Shown here: one piece after another, positions 24,171 through 30,424 of the stretch
Position numbering within the stretch: the stretch's first letter is position 1
Layout: each line of letters begins with the position of its first letter
From: a virus
Strand: one strand, 5' to 3'
IMG/VR virus record: IMGVR_UViG_3300025311_000015
Coordinates: 1-30,424 of that record
Length of the DNA: 30,424 bases
The notes under the pieces: generated by a model
Seen by the model: the letters and a program-made list of their open reading frames with translations, nothing else
Database searches by the model: none
What the model was told of the DNA's origin: nothing
Position numbers and translations under genes: made by a program

Positions 24171-25810
24171 TTACCATAAACGAAGTCCAGGGCAGCGATG
24201 GCTGGATGAAGGCACGTCAAGGCTGCTTCACCGCATCCGAACTGTCCGCCGCCGCAGGGCTATCGAAGTACATGAGCCGCACCGACCTGCTCAAACAGAA
24301 GGCTACCGGCATCACACCGGACATTGACAGCAACACTCAGGCGCTGTTCAACAAAGGCCACGCCGCCGAAGATGCCGCGCGCGCAATCGCGGAAGAAATC
24401 ATCGGCGATGATCTGTCGCCAGTCACCGGCATGATTGACGTTCAAGGTATGAAGCTGTTGGCCTCATTCGACGGAATAACATTCGGCGGCGATACTATCT
24501 GGGAACATAAGTTGTGGTCTCAGTCGCTCGCAGAGGCTATTCGCGGGGGAGAAATTGACCAGCACTACATGTTGCAAATCCATCAGCAGATGTTGGTATC
24601 TGGTGCAAAGTGGTGCCTGTTTATGACATCTGACGGCACGGAAAAGAACATGGAATATATGACCATTGACGCTCCGCAATCTTTCGACAATATCATTGCA
24701 ATCTGGAATCAGTTTGCGATTGATCTTGTTGGGTATCAGCACGTCGCGCCGGTAGAAAAGCCGCAAGCCGCACCAATCAAGGACTTGCCCGCAATCATCA
24801 TCACGTCGGCAGGTTCGTTATCTGTGGAAACGAACTTTGGTCAATGGGAGGTCGCCCTGCGTGAATTCATTGCCAAGATTCCTGAAAAGCCGTCTACCGA
24901 TCAAGAATTCGCCGACTGCAAGGCGGCTGTCGCGGCCTTCAAGAAAGCCGAGGCTGCGCTTGATGCTGAGGAAACGAGGGTTTTGTCGATGGTGCCGTCC
25001 GTAGATGAAATGAAGCGCCATAAAAAACTGCTGCGCGATTTATCGAGCACCACCAGGCTCGCGCTGGAAAAGCTGGTTGTGCGGCGCGACATCGAAGTGA
25101 AGACCGAAATCATGCAGGCCGGAAAGGACGCGCTGGCAGCACACATCGCTGGACTGAACAAGCGACTCGCCACTGTGCAGATGCCGCCTGTCGCCGCCGA
25201 TTTCGCGGAGGCTATCAAGAGTAAGCGTAACCTGGAGAACATGCGCGGTGCCGTGGCTGATCTAGTGGCCGCGAAGAAGATCGAGAGCAATGAGATCGCC
25301 GACAAAATCGACGCGAACATCAAAAAACTGGACGCTGCCAAGGAGCATAACTTCCTCTTCAATGACCGCGCCGCGCTGGTTATGAAAGCGGCTGACGATT
25401 TGGCATTGGTAATCAAAATGCGGATCGCCGAGCACCAGCAAGCCGAAGCCGCCAAGGCCGAAGCTCAGCGCGCAGCAATACAAGCCGAGGAGGAGCGCAA
25501 AGCCACCGCCAAGGCGCAGACCGAGGCTGCGGCTATCCTTGCCGCAGAACTGGCAAAGCAAGTGGCGGAAGAGGCGAGGGCGCGCGTTGACGTAGAAATG
25601 GAAGCCCTCAAGCCTGCAATCAAGTCTGGAACCAGGGCGTGGGCAGGCATTGATGCGCAGGAGCTTCGTGCGGACCGCCAAATTACCCCACCAATCCGCC
25701 CGGATGCCAAAGAAATCATCGAGACATTGCAAGATGTGTTTGGCGTGTCATACGGGACTGCTTGTGACTGGATACTTGAGGTGGCGGAGAATTTGCGAGT
25801 GTCAGCATGA
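24167..25810 (+). CDS. YqaJ / lambda-Exo-type exonuclease with long coiled-coil extension
   Basis: 547 residues from a TTG at 24167 (AAAGGAGTGACGCAAA before it), overlapping the bet stop as TTGA. Residues 1-200 are the nuclease: SDGWMKARQGCFTASE, Glu68 in the KGHAAEDAARAIAEE helix, Asp102 in ASFDG, Glu113-x-Lys115 in WEHKLW, and QIHQQM near 137-142, matching the PD-(D/E)xK set of lambda Exo. Residues ~220-500 are an added, strongly helical coiled-coil region (AAKAEAQRAAIQAEEERKAT), resembling the DUF1351-type phage proteins. The last ~45 residues form a small helical domain. The fusion is more than twice lambda Exo's 226 residues. It may organise loading of Bet. Confidence 0.85.
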   Translation: MITINEVQGSDGWMKARQGCFTASELSAAAGLSKYMSRTDLLKQKATGITPDIDSNTQALFNKGHAAEDAARAIAEEIIGDDLSPVTGMIDVQGMKLLASFDGITFGGDTIWEHKLWSQSLAEAIRGGEIDQHYMLQIHQQMLVSGAKWCLFMTSDGTEKNMEYMTIDAPQSFDNIIAIWNQFAIDLVGYQHVAPVEKPQAAPIKDLPAIIITSAGSLSVETNFGQWEVALREFIAKIPEKPSTDQEFADCKAAVAAFKKAEAALDAEETRVLSMVPSVDEMKRHKKLLRDLSSTTRLALEKLVVRRDIEVKTEIMQAGKDALAAHIAGLNKRLATVQMPPVAADFAEAIKSKRNLENMRGAVADLVAAKKIESNEIADKIDANIKKLDAAKEHNFLFNDRAALVMKAADDLALVIKMRIAEHQQAEAAKAEAQRAAIQAEEERKATAKAQTEAAAILAAELAKQVAEEARARVDVEMEALKPAIKSGTRAWAGIDAQELRADRQITPPIRPDAKEIIETLQDVFGVSYGTACDWILEVAENLRVSA

Positions 25811-26145
25811 GAGCGCTTTTGGAGTCCGAGTTGAACGGCGGGTTGGGGGTCTGGATACCCATCACCGAGAGCCTGCCAGAAAGCGGAAAACCAGTGCTTG
25901 TAGCGTGCGGGAAAAAGGTGCTGCGCGCCGCCCACGCCGGGAAGTTTGCGCTGGACGAGGAGAACTGGGGCTGGTGGAACGATGGGGATGGTGCGGACTA
26001 CAACGAGTCGAACGACACGACGTACTGGCCGGAGGGATGGTACGAATGGAACGAGTACGAGGACTGCCATTGGGCGCTGGATAATGAGCCGACTCATTGG
26101 ATGCCATTGCCGGAGACCCCCAACGTAGAAATAACCGGCGGCTGA
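25807..26145 (+). CDS. DUF551-like protein, first cassette of the attC array
   Basis: 112 residues as read from the ATG at 25807 (overlapping the nuclease stop as ATGA). The domain really begins at about residue 15 (VWIPITESLPESGKPVLVAC) and ends with THWMPLPETP, the two ends of DUF551. The cassette boundary GTTGGGGGTCT (25842-25852) falls after residue 12, so the first residues come from the flanking half site; a TTG at 25843 is a possible original start. The gene runs into site S1 at its 3' end. DUF551 proteins are common small phage proteins of unknown function. Confidence 0.75.
   Translation: MRALLESELNGGLGVWIPITESLPESGKPVLVACGKKVLRAAHAGKFALDEENWGWWNDGDGADYNESNDTTYWPEGWYEWNEYEDCHWALDNEPTHWMPLPETPNVEITGG
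25811..25848 (-). repeat. Half attC-like site S0 at the left edge of the array
   Basis: Read on the minus strand, after the core CCCCAAC come CCGCCGTTCAACTCGGACTC and CAAAAGCGC, which match the left arm and loop of the intact sites. The matching right arm is absent and replaced by the end of the nuclease gene. It marks the edge of the cassette block. Confidence 0.45.
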
Positions 26146-26175
26146 AAGCCGTCCGCGTTGATTGACGGGTTATGC
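26118..26175 (-). repeat. attC-type recombination site S1
   Basis: Left core CCCCAAC, right core GTTATGC. Inner arms AATAACCGGCGGC and GCCGTCCGCGTTGATT pair imperfectly, with one unpaired G in GTTGATT relative to AATAAC. The left core and flank (AGACCCCCAAC) is an 11-bp inverted copy of GTTGGGGGTCT at 25842; the right one (GTTATGCCCC) matches S2. Confidence 0.85.
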
Positions 26176-26211
26176 CCCGTCTTTCGATGGAAATATATTT
26201 TGATTTAGGTA

Positions 26212-26239
26212 TTGACTTTAATTCAAATAGGACTATACT
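26212..26239 (+). promoter_or_regulatory. Cassette-borne sigma70 promoter
   Basis: TTGACT (26212-26217), 16 bp, TATACT (26234-26239), in an AT-rich stretch within the second cassette. It would give a ~45-base leader before the ATG at 26289, which has AAAGGAGAATCAAA. A promoter inside a cassette allows expression in the silent prophage and sets the plus strand as coding. Confidence 0.75.
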
Positions 26240-26288
26240 TCTTTCAACGGTGAGCGATTGGCGCAAACCAAAAAAAAGGAGAATCAAA

Positions 26289-26441
26289 ATGGACACCACA
26301 AAATTAGTTTACGGAGTTTTGAACACCCGCACAGGATCAATAATTGCCGCGTTTCTTTTGAGCACTGACGCGCAGAAATACATTGATACCCTACACGCCA
26401 GAGAAGGTGTTCATGGCGCTCAATATGAAATTGTGCAATGA
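26289..26441 (+). CDS. 50-residue cassette protein, unknown
   Basis: MDTTKLVYGVLNTRTGSIIA followed by AFLLSTDAQKYIDTLHAREG and VHGAQYEIVQ. ATG at 26289 has a strong ribosome site and its own promoter (26212-26239). Small alpha/beta protein without known motifs. It overlaps the next gene by ATGA and the two form one cassette. An antitoxin-toxin pair was considered but nothing in the sequence shows it. Confidence 0.75.
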   Translation: MDTTKLVYGVLNTRTGSIIAAFLLSTDAQKYIDTLHAREGVHGAQYEIVQ

Positions 26442-26626
26442 GCGGCGGGGAACGTAAAGGAGCGGGCCGCAAGCCCGCGCCTACGGAACTGAAAAAGATT
26501 CCGGTGGGAATGAAGTTGCCCCGCTGGCTGGTGGAATGGATGCGCGCCCAGCCGGAAAGCCAAGCTGTGCTGATCGAAGATGCCTTAAAACGGCGGCACA
26601 AATTGAAACCGCCCGAAGGGGCATAA
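26438..26626 (+). CDS. Cassette protein with basic start and RHH-like helix region
   Basis: 62 residues. The N-terminus is basic and AGRKPAP-like (GGERKGAGRKPAPTELKKIP). Then comes VGMKLPRWLVEWMRAQPESQ and AVLIEDALKRRHKL, a strand-helix-helix pattern like small ribbon-helix-helix proteins found in phages. The stop TAA lies inside the core of site S2, so the cassette ends with the gene. It probably binds DNA; partner of the 50-residue protein. Confidence 0.72.
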   Translation: MSGGERKGAGRKPAPTELKKIPVGMKLPRWLVEWMRAQPESQAVLIEDALKRRHKLKPPEGA

Positions 26627-26683
26627 CGTCTGAATTAAGGGGCGCGCTTCAGCGCGTCCCTCTTGAATGATGGGTTCGACACC
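26618..26683 (-). repeat. attC-type recombination site S2
   Basis: Left GGGGCATAAC (10-bp inverted copy of the right end of S1), right GTTCGACACC (inverted copy of the left end of S3). Arms ATTAAGGGGCGCGC and GCGCGTCCCTCTTGAAT form a hairpin with loop TTCA and an unpaired G in CTTGAAT. The stop codon of the preceding gene lies in the left core. Confidence 0.88.
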
Positions 26684-26717
26684 GCCCTTTGATGCGTGTC
26701 ACAACAGGAGAAACAAA

Positions 26718-26912
26718 ATGCTTAAAAACTACCGCAAGAAGAATGTTCAACCGATGCGCCCTTATGAACCCGGTGAGGACATGACGGGCATATCTGTGAA
26801 CAAGGAAGACACTCCAGAACTCGGAGGGATGATTGCTATAAATCCTGCCAACGGAGAAGACCGATGGTATGTTGCAAAGCAATTTTTCGAGGATAACTAC
26901 GTCGAGGCGTGA
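26718..26912 (+). CDS. 64-residue phage-type cassette protein
   Basis: MLKNYRKKNVQPMRPYEPGE, then DMTGISVNKEDTPELGGMIA and INPANGEDRWYVAKQFFEDN. ATG at 26718 with CAGGAGAAACAAA before it, 35 bp inside the cassette. Small proteins with this plan (YRKK, MRPY.PGEDM.GIS, GGMIA.NP.N, WYV) are found in early regions of tailed phages. Function unknown. It has no promoter of its own in the short gap to S2, so it relies on upstream transcription. Confidence 0.78.
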   Translation: MLKNYRKKNVQPMRPYEPGEDMTGISVNKEDTPELGGMIAINPANGEDRWYVAKQFFEDNYVEA

Positions 26913-26913
26913 A

Positions 26914-26983
26914 GGTGTCGAACGTTTGAAATGAGGGGCAGCGCCGCTTTTGCGCTGTCCCGCTCGATTGATGGGTTGTGCGT
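26914..26983 (-). repeat. attC-type recombination site S3
   Basis: Left GGTGTCGAAC (matches S2 right end over 10 bp), right GTTGTGCGT (matches S4 left end over 9 bp). Arms AATGAGGGGCAGCGC and GCGCTGTCCCGCTCGATT pair around CGCTTTT, with an unpaired G in CTCGATT. Confidence 0.9.
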
Positions 26984-27006
26984 ATCGTAACTACGGAGAG
27001 ACAAGA

Positions 27007-27345
27007 ATGGAAACGACATTTGAAAAACTGCCAGCCGTTGCCGGTTCTGTGGCGTGCCTGACATGTGGATGTGGGGCGCGAAGTGACTTGCACTTGGAGC
27101 GAACGATTGCCGTTGGATTCGGAAGCTCCGGATACAGCCGAGACGGAGAAACGCTGTGGGATGAAGGGCAAACCGAGGAAGGGGAAGAAAAGTTTCCAAC
27201 CGTTGCTGATGTTGAGGCGCTGGCGTTGGAAGACCCGAACCACGACTGGCGAATTTTCTTCTTCGCTCCGTTGTATGAATCGGAGTACCAGCGGCAAGGC
27301 AGCGGCGTATGGGTACTGATTAGCAAAGGCGATGGTTTTGCTTGA
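27007..27345 (+). CDS. Acidic cassette protein with Cys cluster
   Basis: 112 residues from the ATG at 27007 (CGGAGAGACAAGA before it). An N-terminal VACLTCGCGARSDLHLE has three closely spaced Cys, possibly half of a metal site. A middle segment (SRDGETLWDEGQTEEGEEKF) is very acidic, and the C-terminus is alpha/beta (DWRIFFFAPLYESEYQRQGS, then GVWVLISKGDGFA). Its last codons lie next to S4. It resembles small phage or plasmid proteins of unknown function; acidity could suggest DNA mimicry, not demonstrated. Confidence 0.75.
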   Translation: METTFEKLPAVAGSVACLTCGCGARSDLHLERTIAVGFGSSGYSRDGETLWDEGQTEEGEEKFPTVADVEALALEDPNHDWRIFFFAPLYESEYQRQGSGVWVLISKGDGFA

Positions 27346-27346
27346 G

Positions 27347-27417
27347 ACGCACAACGTGGAGTTAAGGTCGCCTTCGCCGCCTTTGGCGAAGGTCGCGCCT
27401 TGAACGTAAAGTTAGAA
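27347..27417 (-). repeat. attC-type recombination site S4
   Basis: Left ACGCACAAC (9-bp inverted copy of S3 right end), right GTTAGAA (matches S5 left end). Arms GTTAAGGTCGCCTTCGCC and GGCGAAGGTCGCGCCTTGAAC pair around GCCTTT with the unpaired G in CTTGAAC. Its minus-strand form (CGTTCAAG...CTTAACTC) is very close to classical class 1 integron attC sites. Confidence 0.9.
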
Positions 27418-27438
27418 ATCAACCTCAACGGAGCAAAT

Positions 27439-27765
27439 ATGCCAACAAAAATGCAAAATGAAAACAAGACTATCTTTGGATTAACAAATCCAGGGGACTT
27501 TGCATTTGATGGATGGGTTACAGATACTTTGAGTCCAACAGGATTTAGCCCAACTAGATTGGTTTTCTTAAACCCACATTGCAGATTTAATCAATGCTCA
27601 GTCAATATAACTCGCGGTGAAGCACAATCTGGGGTTGCTCATCACTGGGACGGAAATTTGGAGAAGCCTACTATAACACCGAGTATTGGATGTAAAGAAC
27701 GGCCTTGGCCTAGAATGCGTTGCGAGTGGCACGGGCATATTACCAACGGGGAAATACTGCCGTGA
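27439..27765 (+). CDS. DUF6527-like cassette protein
   Basis: 108 residues from the ATG at 27439 (CGGAGCAAAT before it). The C-terminal half has NPHCRFNQCSVNITRGEAQS and EKPTITPSIGC, then RCEWHGHITNGEILP. The PTxxPSI and C.WHG.I.NGE pieces fit the DUF6527 family of small phage proteins with Cys/His clusters. The gene is AT-richer than the phage core. Family assignment moderate, function unknown. Confidence 0.72.
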   Translation: MPTKMQNENKTIFGLTNPGDFAFDGWVTDTLSPTGFSPTRLVFLNPHCRFNQCSVNITRGEAQSGVAHHWDGNLEKPTITPSIGCKERPWPRMRCEWHGHITNGEILP

Positions 27766-27766
27766 C

Positions 27767-27830
27767 TTCTAACGTGGAGCTAAGGGGCTGCGCGCTTTTG
27801 CGCAGTCCCGCTTGAGCGGAAAGTTAGGCA
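27767..27830 (-). repeat. attC-type recombination site S5
   Basis: Left TTCTAAC (7-bp inverted copy of S4 right end), right GTTAGGCA (matches the S6 core over 8 bp). Arms GCTAAGGGGCTGCGC and GCGCAGTCCCGCTTGAGC pair around GCTTTT with the unpaired G in CTTGAGC. The right core GTTAGGC is the commonest integron core sequence. Confidence 0.92.
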
Positions 27831-27847
27831 TTTTAACTGGAGAAAAT

Positions 27848-28018
27848 ATGTTTATGAAAAAATTTAGCAATTGGATAGTTGCACTTAAATTGAAATATGC
27901 TTTTCGATGGATCGAAGGTCGTGGATTATCTGTGGTTCGAATCGTCGAAAGAGCGGGAACACAATACATTGTTGCACAAGATGGAGCGTTTCATAAAATT
28001 GGGAAGCGCAGTGCCTAA
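27848..28018 (+). CDS. 56-residue basic cassette protein
   Basis: MFMKKFSNWIVALKLKYAFR, then WIEGRGLSVVRIVERAGTQY and IVAQDGAFHKIGKRSA. ATG at 27848 with CTGGAGAAAAT before it. A basic amphipathic N-terminal helix precedes a small beta sheet. The stop TAA lies inside the S6 core. AT-rich like the previous cassette. Function unknown. Confidence 0.7.
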   Translation: MFMKKFSNWIVALKLKYAFRWIEGRGLSVVRIVERAGTQYIVAQDGAFHKIGKRSA

Positions 28019-28045
28019 CGTGTGATAGGCGGATCACCGTGCAAC
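28012..28045 (-). repeat. Terminal cassette junction S6 (core present, attC arms absent)
   Basis: TGCCTAAC (28012-28019) is an 8-bp inverted copy of the S5 right core. Beyond it the sequence has only a small GTGAT...ATCAC hairpin and no second core. In the minus-strand polarity of the attC sites this is the start of the array, like the attI-cassette junction of an integron or a secondary insertion point. Confidence 0.6.
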
Positions 28046-28281: not shown

Positions 28282-28562
28282 GCCTACCGATTATCACGCT
28301 TCAAAAGCTATCAGCAGAATCGGGTTATACTGAGGACGCTTTGCGCTCAAAAATAGCCCGTGGCGATTTTGCGGAAGGCATCCATTACATCAAATCCCCG
28401 GACGGGCGAATTCACTTTATCGTTGAGGCATATCTGAAATGGGTGGAATCAAACCGCACCGCAAAGGCATCCAGATCACGTTCTATTGGAATGGGGAGCG
28501 CCACAGGCCGACACTCGGAATCGAATCGACCACATCAAATCTCAAGTATGCGGCCCGCCTAA
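28278..28562 (+). CDS. xis: Excisionase-like protein
   Basis: 94 residues from the ATG at 28278 (GAAAGGAAATTTGAT before it). The first ~55 residues form a winged-helix DNA-binding unit (LQKLSAESGYTEDALRSKIA RGDF, then EGIHYIKSPDGRIHFIVEAY LKW), as in Xis/AlpA-type excisionases. The remaining ~40 basic residues overlap the integrase gene in another frame (124 bp), an arrangement also known in lambda. It would bend att DNA and direct the integrase to excise. Confidence 0.8.
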   Translation: MSLPIITLQKLSAESGYTEDALRSKIARGDFAEGIHYIKSPDGRIHFIVEAYLKWVESNRTAKASRSRSIGMGSATGRHSESNRPHQISSMRPA

Positions 28563-29599
28563 AAGGGGAGATCGAGCGCGCTATATCGCTGGGCAATTAC
28601 ACCCTTGAACAATATGTCGCACACTTCCCCACTTCGCGCATTGCACGATCCGCTCCGGCAGCGATTGGAAAGCCGACATTTGAGGTGATAGCAAAACGCT
28701 GGCTTGAAGCATCCAGCCACCTATCTGCCGGAACACTTATCAAGTACCGGCAGGCACTGGACTTCTGGCTTGCACGAATCGGCTGCGACCAAATAGATTG
28801 CATTCAGTATTCCACCATTGCCGCGCTGGCGAATTCGCAGGGCTGGGGTGCGAAGAACCGCAACAATATGCTGATCCCGCTACGTCAGGTTATGGAAATG
28901 GCTTTCCTTGACGGCCTGATCGACAGCAATCCAGCCGAGCGCATCAAAAATGCCAAGGTGCAAAAAGAGCCTCCCGACCCACTGACAGCGGAAGAAGTTG
29001 ATACCGTGCTGGCATACATGCAGAAATATGATGCACAGATCGTCAATCTGTTTGAGTTTTCATTCTTCACCGGGATGCGGCCAAGTGAGGTTATTTCACT
29101 GCGCTGGGGTGATATTGACCAGATGCGCGGACTCGCCAGGGTGAAGCGCGCCAGGACGTTTGGCGAGGAACACGAAACCAAGACATTCAAGGTGCGCGAC
29201 GTGGAGTTAAACAGCCGCGCCAAGGCTGCGCTTGCGCGTCAGAAGCCGCTCACGTTACTGAAGGATGGGTATGTATTCGAGAACCCGGTAACGGGCGAAC
29301 CGTACAGCGAGGAAAGGCCGCTGCGCCGGGCGTACTGGAATCCATCGCTCAAGGCTCTAGGAATGCGCGAGAGGAATTTCTACCAGACCCGTCATACCTA
29401 CGCCACCCTGAACCTGATGGCTGGGGCAAACCCGATGTGGGTCGCCAAGCAGCTAGGCCATGCCACCATGCAGATGGTTTTGACGGTTTACGGTAAGTGG
29501 ATTGACGGTGCAGACAAGAGCAACGAGCGGGGAAAAATCGACTCAATGTTTACCGACACCGCCACCAAAACGCCACCAAAAAAGAATGCAGTCTTATAA
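28439..29599 (+). CDS. int: Tyrosine-recombinase phage integrase
   Basis: 386 residues. The N-terminal arm-binding domain (GGIKPHRKGIQITFYWNGER) is of the DUF3596 type. The core-binding domain spans about 80-175. The catalytic domain carries Arg214 (TGMRPSEV), a likely Lys248, Tyr-x-x-Arg318 in FYQTRHTYA (Tyr in place of the usual His), His341 in QLGHAT, and the nucleophile Tyr351 in VYGKW. It ends 14 bp from the 3' end of tRNA-Pro, which is the integration target. It lacks the extra helix of integron integrases and is not IntI. Confidence 0.95.
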   Translation: MGGIKPHRKGIQITFYWNGERHRPTLGIESTTSNLKYAARLKGEIERAISLGNYTLEQYVAHFPTSRIARSAPAAIGKPTFEVIAKRWLEASSHLSAGTLIKYRQALDFWLARIGCDQIDCIQYSTIAALANSQGWGAKNRNNMLIPLRQVMEMAFLDGLIDSNPAERIKNAKVQKEPPDPLTAEEVDTVLAYMQKYDAQIVNLFEFSFFTGMRPSEVISLRWGDIDQMRGLARVKRARTFGEEHETKTFKVRDVELNSRAKAALARQKPLTLLKDGYVFENPVTGEPYSEERPLRRAYWNPSLKALGMRERNFYQTRHTYATLNLMAGANPMWVAKQLGHATMQMVLTVYGKWIDGADKSNERGKIDSMFTDTATKTPPKKNAVL

Positions 29600-29690
<91 letters not shown>

Positions 29691-29732
29691 AGGGCGCGAA
29701 TTATAGCAGAGCAGCATGAGTCATAAAGCGTT

Positions 29733-30095
29733 TTAAGCGCTTAACAGCGTAATAATTTCGCGAATCTCATGACGCAATGCTGCCGTATTCACTACTGAAG
29801 CAGATGTAATAGTGCTCTCGGTCTCGCCGGGGTGTCCCAAGCGGTTGCGCGCGCCACTGATGGTGAAGCCCTGTTCGTACAGTAACTCGCGGATGCGCCG
29901 GATCAGCAGCACTTCATGGTGCTGGTAGTAGCGGCGGTTACCGCTGCGCTTGACCGGTTTGAGCTGGGTAAATTCCTGCTCCCAGTAGCGCAGCACATGC
30001 GCCTTGACCCCGCACAATTCGCTGACTTCACCAATGGTGAAATAACGTTTGGCGGGAATCGGCGGGAGCTCGGAATTAGGTTTGTGATTTTCCAT
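29733..30095 (-). CDS. MerR-family transcriptional regulator (host)
   Basis: 120 residues. Winged helix-turn-helix: [27 protein letters not shown], then [20 protein letters not shown] with [18 protein letters not shown]. The short C-terminal part (residues ~85-120) lacks metal-binding cysteines. This small MerR protein follows ihfA in many beta- and gammaproteobacteria and overlaps its 3' end by 20 bp. Target genes unknown. Confidence 0.88.
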
Positions 30096-30387
30096 GATAG
30101 GACTTTTCCACCATGGTCTTCAGTTTCTGGCTGGGATGGAACGTCACGACACGGCGTGCGGTGATTGGAATTTCCTCGCCGGTCTTGGGGTTGCGCCCAG
30201 GACGCTGCGGTTTGTCGCGCAATTGGAAGTTGCCGAAGCCGGACAGTTTGACGCTCTCGCCCTTTTCGAGTTGCGCGCGTATTTCTTCGAAGAACGCTTC
30301 CACCATATCCTTAGCCTCGCGTTTGTTGAGGCCGACCTTCTCGAACAGCAGATCAGCCAGTTCGGCCTTGGTTAACGTCGTTGTCAT
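30076..30387 (-). CDS. ihfA: Integration host factor alpha subunit (host)
   Basis: 103 residues. [20 protein letters not shown], then [40 protein letters not shown] is the HU/IHF DNA-binding arm with the Pro at the intercalating tip. ATG at 30387 with AAGGGAGAAAA before it. IHF bends DNA and helps phage integrases; its gene lies beside the integration site by operon order, usually after pheT (outside this window). Confidence 0.96.
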
Positions 30388-30424
30388 TTTTCTCCCTTAA
30401 TCATATAAATCCCGCGCAGCGAAC

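Follow-up and report, generated by a model that had tools for sequence, protein, structure and literature searches.

An integron-type cassette array of inverted gene polarity in a P22-like temperate phage, very probably one of a phage-specific class

Integrons are the machinery by which bacteria shuffle resistance genes, and the mosaicism of phage genomes is usually ascribed to homologous or illegitimate recombination. Phages are already known from one survey to carry integrons and clusters of attC sites lacking integron integrases (CALINs), namely Vibrio anguillarum p16 and p42, Shewanella M16-3, TJE1, PH101 and MW202573; for some of the phage attC sites, recombination with attI1 has been demonstrated in E. 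coli (Qi et al., 2023; PMC9892861). Here, we analyze an attC array in the IMG/VR virus record IMGVR_UViG_3300025311_000015, whose 30,424 bases are referred to as the window. The window resembles the phages of that survey in having an attC array in a phage genome, where such arrays occur with or without an integron integrase (IntI). Because the window contains no IntI, its array is a CALIN and not a complete integron. We are confident that it belongs to a phage-specific class of inverted polarity, in which cassette genes lie antisense to attC, given its attC family, polarity, position and cargo.

The attC sites of the window are as follows.

25811-25847, plus strand: half attC, a truncated sixth site of which the right half (GTCC-GA-GTTGAAC-GGCGG-GTTGGG) remains, fused with the recE end
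26122-26171, plus strand: attC1; the plus strand is the canonical bottom strand (extra G, right arm)
26625-26676, plus strand: attC2
26921-26977, plus strand: attC3
27353-27413, plus strand: attC4, 52.8 bits in cmsearch
27771-27825, plus strand: attC5, with a 45-nt interior identical to attC sites of Gallionellaceae chromosomes

All five intact sites are bounded by AAC and GTT, and their arms pair, with a single additional G in the plus-strand right arm. Over the five sites, 98.3% of the arm cells are paired as compared to 82.8% in shuffles, and six pairs have changed on both sides (2.4 in shuffles; 0 of 500 shuffles as high). An earlier sequence-only reading of this stretch had named five intact attC-type sites with one unpaired G, and these are borne out at the same positions with arms that pair and covary. 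The array hence contains at least two closely spaced attC sites with paired arms, an extrahelical base and AAC/GTT cores, as is required of a CALIN. The half attC GTCCGAGTTGAACGGCGGGTTGGG is located at the left array edge (25824-25847). Its right-half pattern, which was drawn from the known sites and chosen after seeing them, occurred in 0 of 200 shuffles, and the half site is left unscored by the covariance model of attC, which was built from the five sites of the window. No site is recognizable at the right edge, 3' of cassette 6. An Rfam scan at the gathering threshold returned nothing in the array, which is hardly informative as we know of no attC family in Rfam.

These sites delimit six cassettes with seven genes, since cassette 2 has two open reading frames (ORFs).

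25842-26124, plus strand: cassette 1, DUF551 gene (PF04448, E 1e-9); cores GTTGGGGGTCT / AGACCCCCAAC, 11-nt match; the ORF (25807-26145) reads in through the half attC, and the start within the cassette is perhaps TTG at 25843
26169-26627, plus strand: cassette 2, ORFs 26289-26441 (50 aa) and 26438-26626 (62 aa; matches phrog_8312, E 2e-4); codon score on plus; cores GTTATGCCCC / GGGGCATAAC, 10-nt match
26674-26923, plus strand: cassette 3, ORF 26718-26912 (64 aa); codon score on plus; cores GTTCGACACC / GGTGTCGAAC, 10-nt match
26975-27355, plus strand: cassette 4, ORF 27007-27345 (112 aa); cores GTTGTGCGT / ACGCACAAC, 9-nt match
27411-27773, plus strand: cassette 5, ORF 27439-27765, DUF6527-like (PF20137, E 9e-6); cores GTTAGAA / TTCTAAC, 7-nt match
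27823-28019, plus strand: cassette 6, ORF 27848-28018 (56 aa); cores GTTAGGCA / TGCCTAAC, 8-nt match

The facing cores of the six cassettes lie where the earlier reading had placed them and match over 11, 10, 10, 9, 7, and 8 nt. Among all 720 possible pairings, the true one alone ranks first (sum 55, mean 25.8, next 50). Cores inside one attC site match by 3-5 nt only, and among control GTT..AAC pairs matches of at least 7 nt are found in 0.46%. Such cores are expected of integron cassettes: a cassette arrives with its own two cores, and any site of the array combines parts of two cassettes. The genes called on the plus strand are real, judging from the Pfam matches of the DUF551 and DUF6527 genes, both recognized as phage-like cargo at the outset, and from phage relatives of the 112-aa gene in cassette 4. 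The protein of the latter shares 65-68% identity with genes of two phages (L015 and L016), and the L016 homolog, the one examined, is part of an ordinary early operon without attC. More distant relatives (about 40% identical) occur in large Bacillus phages (Goe24, SIOphi).

Beyond the earlier reading, the analysis brought up the half attC at the left edge, the inverted polarity of attC and a phage lineage with its own IntI and attI. At each of the five sites in the window, the genes are encoded on the attC bottom strand (the extra-G strand). Canonical CALIN polarity places attC at the 3' end of the gene, and the window is the reverse of R721, R100 and Gallionellaceae in this respect; aadA1 on R721 and intI1/aadA1 on R100, which served as controls, have the gene opposite the attC bottom strand. 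The five-site covariance model matches the same attC family in Gallionellaceae chromosomes, where genes are in ordinary orientation. This attC family was found in 83 of 120 Gallionellaceae genomes and IntI in 65 of the 120. A pattern scan yielded 57 viral stretches, in which cmsearch placed 242 attC sites. Polarity was assigned by codon score, and the longest-ORF rule alone was dropped because it is too noisy for this purpose; gene calls are our own, and nearly all viral evidence comes from metagenome contigs. Counting all sites, viral cassettes were scored as inverted in 142 cases, canonical in 10 and unclear in 36. With stricter, non-redundant cassettes, viral loci gave 84 inverted and 9 canonical, whereas Gallionellaceae genomes gave 24 canonical and 4 inverted. 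The cleanest polarity control is a 45-nt attC common to viral loci and genomes (at most two substitutions), beside which genes lie almost exclusively on the bottom strand (plus) in viral loci and almost exclusively on minus in genomes. The few inverted-scoring cassettes in Gallionellaceae genome loci (L195, L235) are maybe phage cassettes acquired by chromosomal integrons, or miscalls. A phage attC elsewhere (L330, 13076-13140) is a few positions off an aadA1-type attC (GCCTGAATTAAGCCGCGCC...GGCTTGAATGAATTGTTAGAC), with inverted gene polarity nearby.

Inverted cassettes together with a full-length IntI and an attI are present in relatives and not in the window. Full-length IntI was detected in two of the 50 viral records with this attC type; the other 48 are without a full-length match, many being fragments. 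Both IntI records have repressor-type and early genes first, then cassettes, attI and intI, all on one strand. Such arrays have intI at their 3' end, on the immediate right. A search with these two IntI proteins led to 41 viral loci. In phages, genes 5' of intI nearly always share its strand, whereas in Gallionellaceae genomes they are mostly found on the opposite one. The phage IntI score >430 bits with TIGR02249, above the curated cut-off, and have IntI4 (2a3v) as their best PDB match; they show the IntI-specific insert, and most have an LPxALxxKYP motif. Among the IntI contigs examined, which encode head, portal, tail or terminase proteins, the siphovirus (G177), podovirus (G178), and myovirus (G181) types are represented. 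Moreover, a conserved phage attI, AAC|TTRAATTCRRCGACAC, precedes intI in 22 viral stretches and is found in 0 of 399 genomes of the order, among which no integrated copy with this motif was located. Up to 4 kb upstream of the phage attI, 49,842 gene bases are on the plus strand and 388 on the minus strand. In a tree of IntI, twelve phage IntI fall on one side of a branch relative to the Gallionellaceae IntI with weak support (77/74). Taken together, betaproteobacterial temperate phages, and perhaps others, are likely to have an integron lineage of their own, with its own IntI clade, attI and cassette pool and with genes antisense to attC. The phage and bacterial pools would share att chemistry, be separated by gene orientation, and serve in phages for the exchange of genes with early and anti-restriction functions (Mom, Dam, methylases, Lar).

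Class 1 IntI1 (L214, identical to IntI1 of R100) groups with phage IntI (98/88 and 99/95 in two trees) on a long branch that makes its placement unsure. A LexA-like box was found in none of 10 phages, which is uninformative for the control of phage intI as only 3 of 31 genome loci have one. Phage IntI of other lineages (L245, i.e., Rctr41k, KX853513, and L166, L169, L173) have arrays 3' of intI that are not annotated as integrons. In these arrays, every gene shares the strand of intI, and the attC-like sites are of a different type. A divergent phage IntI (L167 / L256; G194) is accompanied by compact attC-type sites, five of them consecutive in a chain scan, that are also inverted.

The earlier reading had put forward that phages may trade early genes by integron recombination, which a fixed gene order with repeats off the cassette boundaries would contradict. 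Such an order was not found in related phages, which have different cassettes at these sites with breakpoints exactly on the cassette boundary. Two phages (L146 and L147) have 100% identical IntI and flanks of >99% identity and differ in several cassettes, for example TGCGCCCTAAC|GTAAAAGTGAGG..cassette..TGGGGTCGAAC|GCTTAGGTGTGG as compared to TGCGCCCTAAC|GCTTAGGTGTGG. All junctions of this pair are AAC|G on the gene strand, i.e., G|TT on the opposite strand. Where a cassette is absent, the attC upstream of its gene is also gone and the downstream attC is kept. As the upstream attC is lost with the cassette, the mobile unit is attC plus gene, and it follows that the inverted polarity is, on this comparison, the active one with which the system works. 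A further pair (L148/L149) shows gain or loss of whole cassettes with the crossover at G|TT, and in another group (L156-L160) one IntI is combined with three different cassettes at attI.

With attC structure, inverted polarity, a phage intI with attI and whole-cassette gain and loss with a G|TT crossover established at the level of sequence, the following mechanism is probable. An integron integrase would act in trans, supplied by an intI-bearing phage or a chromosomal integron of the host, one of which would have built the window array. IntI would fold the attC bottom strand, presumably also in vivo, which is the coding strand in the window, and would cleave the opposite strand at the G|TT step; the cassette would consequently move as "attC + gene." An inserted cassette would keep the direction of the phage operon, because its gene is antisense to attC. 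In phages that have retained intI, one strand carries, in this order, the phage promoter, older cassettes, the newest cassette, attI and intI, and since all of these are on one strand behind the phage promoter, cassettes and intI would be transcribed jointly from that promoter and not from an integron Pc.

The window itself is a P22-like temperate phage integrated at tRNA-Pro. Portal, terminase, coat, tail-fiber-like, Bet/RecE and integrase genes were detected, supporting the initial view of a CALIN in a temperate phage, and the array is placed between recE and the phage integrase.

23397-25810, plus strand: Bet/RecT-like annealing protein and RecE-like exonuclease (phrog_252, E 4e-87; phrog_7655, E 1e-141), 5' of the array on the same strand
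28439-29599, plus strand: phage tyrosine integrase with arm-binding domain, not IntI (PF12167, PF00589)
29617-29690: tRNA-Pro, attachment site

The tyrosine integrase was considered as an IntI and rejected owing to its arm-binding domain and a score of only 21 bits to the IntI model (cut-off 265); hence no IntI is present in the window, in agreement with the sequence-only reading. The host is probably a member of the Gallionellaceae, because the sequence on the far side of the tRNA, which holds MerR and IHF-alpha genes, shares 88% identity with Gallionella sp. STA_52 and Ca. Ferrigenium straubiae. The tRNA-Pro site by merR and ihfA (window 29600-30424) is also used by related Gallionellaceae prophage integrases (L017, L022). 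Gallionellaceae prophages with the same integrase (L017-L022) have no attC beside it, and the window is therefore without a direct empty-slot comparison. Arrays of attC 3' of bet and on the same strand were found in three of 80 Bet relatives (L280, L305, L330), and their slot resembles that of the window. Searches of viral contigs with RecE and DUF6527 found no relative, and the DUF6527 cassette had no match in a plasmid search.

Could the array have another origin? G+C-rich hairpins between co-oriented genes, with no recombinase for them in the window, might be transcription terminators or repeat elements between early genes instead of recombination sites. This is most improbable: the attC sites have no T tract, their arms covary with the extra G at one place, the facing cores are exact per cassette and not within sites, and related phages gain and lose whole cassettes precisely and carry intI and attI beside such arrays. 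It is also very unlikely, if somewhat less so, that the phage captured a piece of an ordinary Gallionellaceae integron array, as in the Vibrio anguillarum and Shewanella phages. Capture of bacterial integrons is known from other phages (PMC9892861), and the abundance of the attC family and of IntI in host genomes, as well as the attC5 interior shared with chromosomal sites, would fit. However, a chromosomal array would be canonical, whereas the window genes are on the attC bottom strand as in other phage arrays, and cassette 4 at least is a gene of ordinary phage operons. A further possibility, plausible though not the one we favor, accepts the phage class and holds that the array was built by an IntI once carried by the same phage and later deleted along with attI, not by one in trans. 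Deletions at the two ends of the array are suggested by the half attC on the left and the lack of attI on the right, and relatives keep intI just right of the array. Yet no remnant of intI or attI was detected in the window, where no attI is recognizable at the right edge, and full-length IntI matches are scarce among viral contigs with this attC type, many of which are fragments.

Several points weigh against a mobile array of the phage-specific inverted class. In the phage of the window, neither an excision nor an insertion was observed, and the mobility of its array is argued by analogy, because the window has no IntI and no relative with a different set of its cassettes; the array may be a fixed relic. 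Furthermore, the polarity calls depend on a simple codon score that gives an unclear or opposite call for about 10% of viral cassettes, and the metagenomic origin of almost all viral records applies here as well.

The 78 viral cassette proteins have almost no homology among one another. Named products comprise Mom, Dam, N6/N4 methylase, Lar, RtcB, phosphoadenosine phosphosulfate (PAPS) reductase, DHH phosphoesterase and exonucleases, suggesting that viral cassettes serve anti-restriction and early functions. A dedicated site-specific system appears to swap phage early and anti-restriction genes singly, with swaps visible between near-identical phages, and phages seem to maintain and reassort their own pool of genes. 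The same attC sequence is compatible with genes in both orientations, a finding relevant to the open problem of cassette origin, and an orientation barrier between bacterial and phage cassette pools is suggested, an idea that is directly testable.

The phage class with inverted cassettes is apparently undescribed: in the literature searched, preprints not covered, neither a class of inverted cassettes nor the phage attI was found to be reported, and the main-text passages of PMC9892861 considered here are silent on how genes are oriented relative to attC, on an IntI/attI lineage specific to phages and on the turnover of cassettes between related phages. Among the phages in these passages, the P22-like MW202573, listed as a CALIN (Fig. 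2D), belongs to the inverted class by our reading, with the attC bottom strand on plus at 2067, 2279, and 3668 and genes on plus. In contrast, M16-3 and p16 have the ordinary layout with intI on one strand and cassette genes mostly on the opposite strand, and the sites of TJE1 are canonical by eye. The sedentary chromosomal integrons of Gallionellaceae (e.g., G005 C5:207-212 kb) share with the phages the attC family, identical 45-nt interiors and the placing of the attC bottom strand relative to intI. Their cassette genes, however, point away from intI, whereas those of phages point toward it. In reverse integrons (e.g., Treponema), intI is co-directional with the cassettes and turned round relative to attI. 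The phage class likewise has intI and cassette genes on one strand; yet its intI-attC relation is ordinary, and it is the genes that are turned relative to attC.

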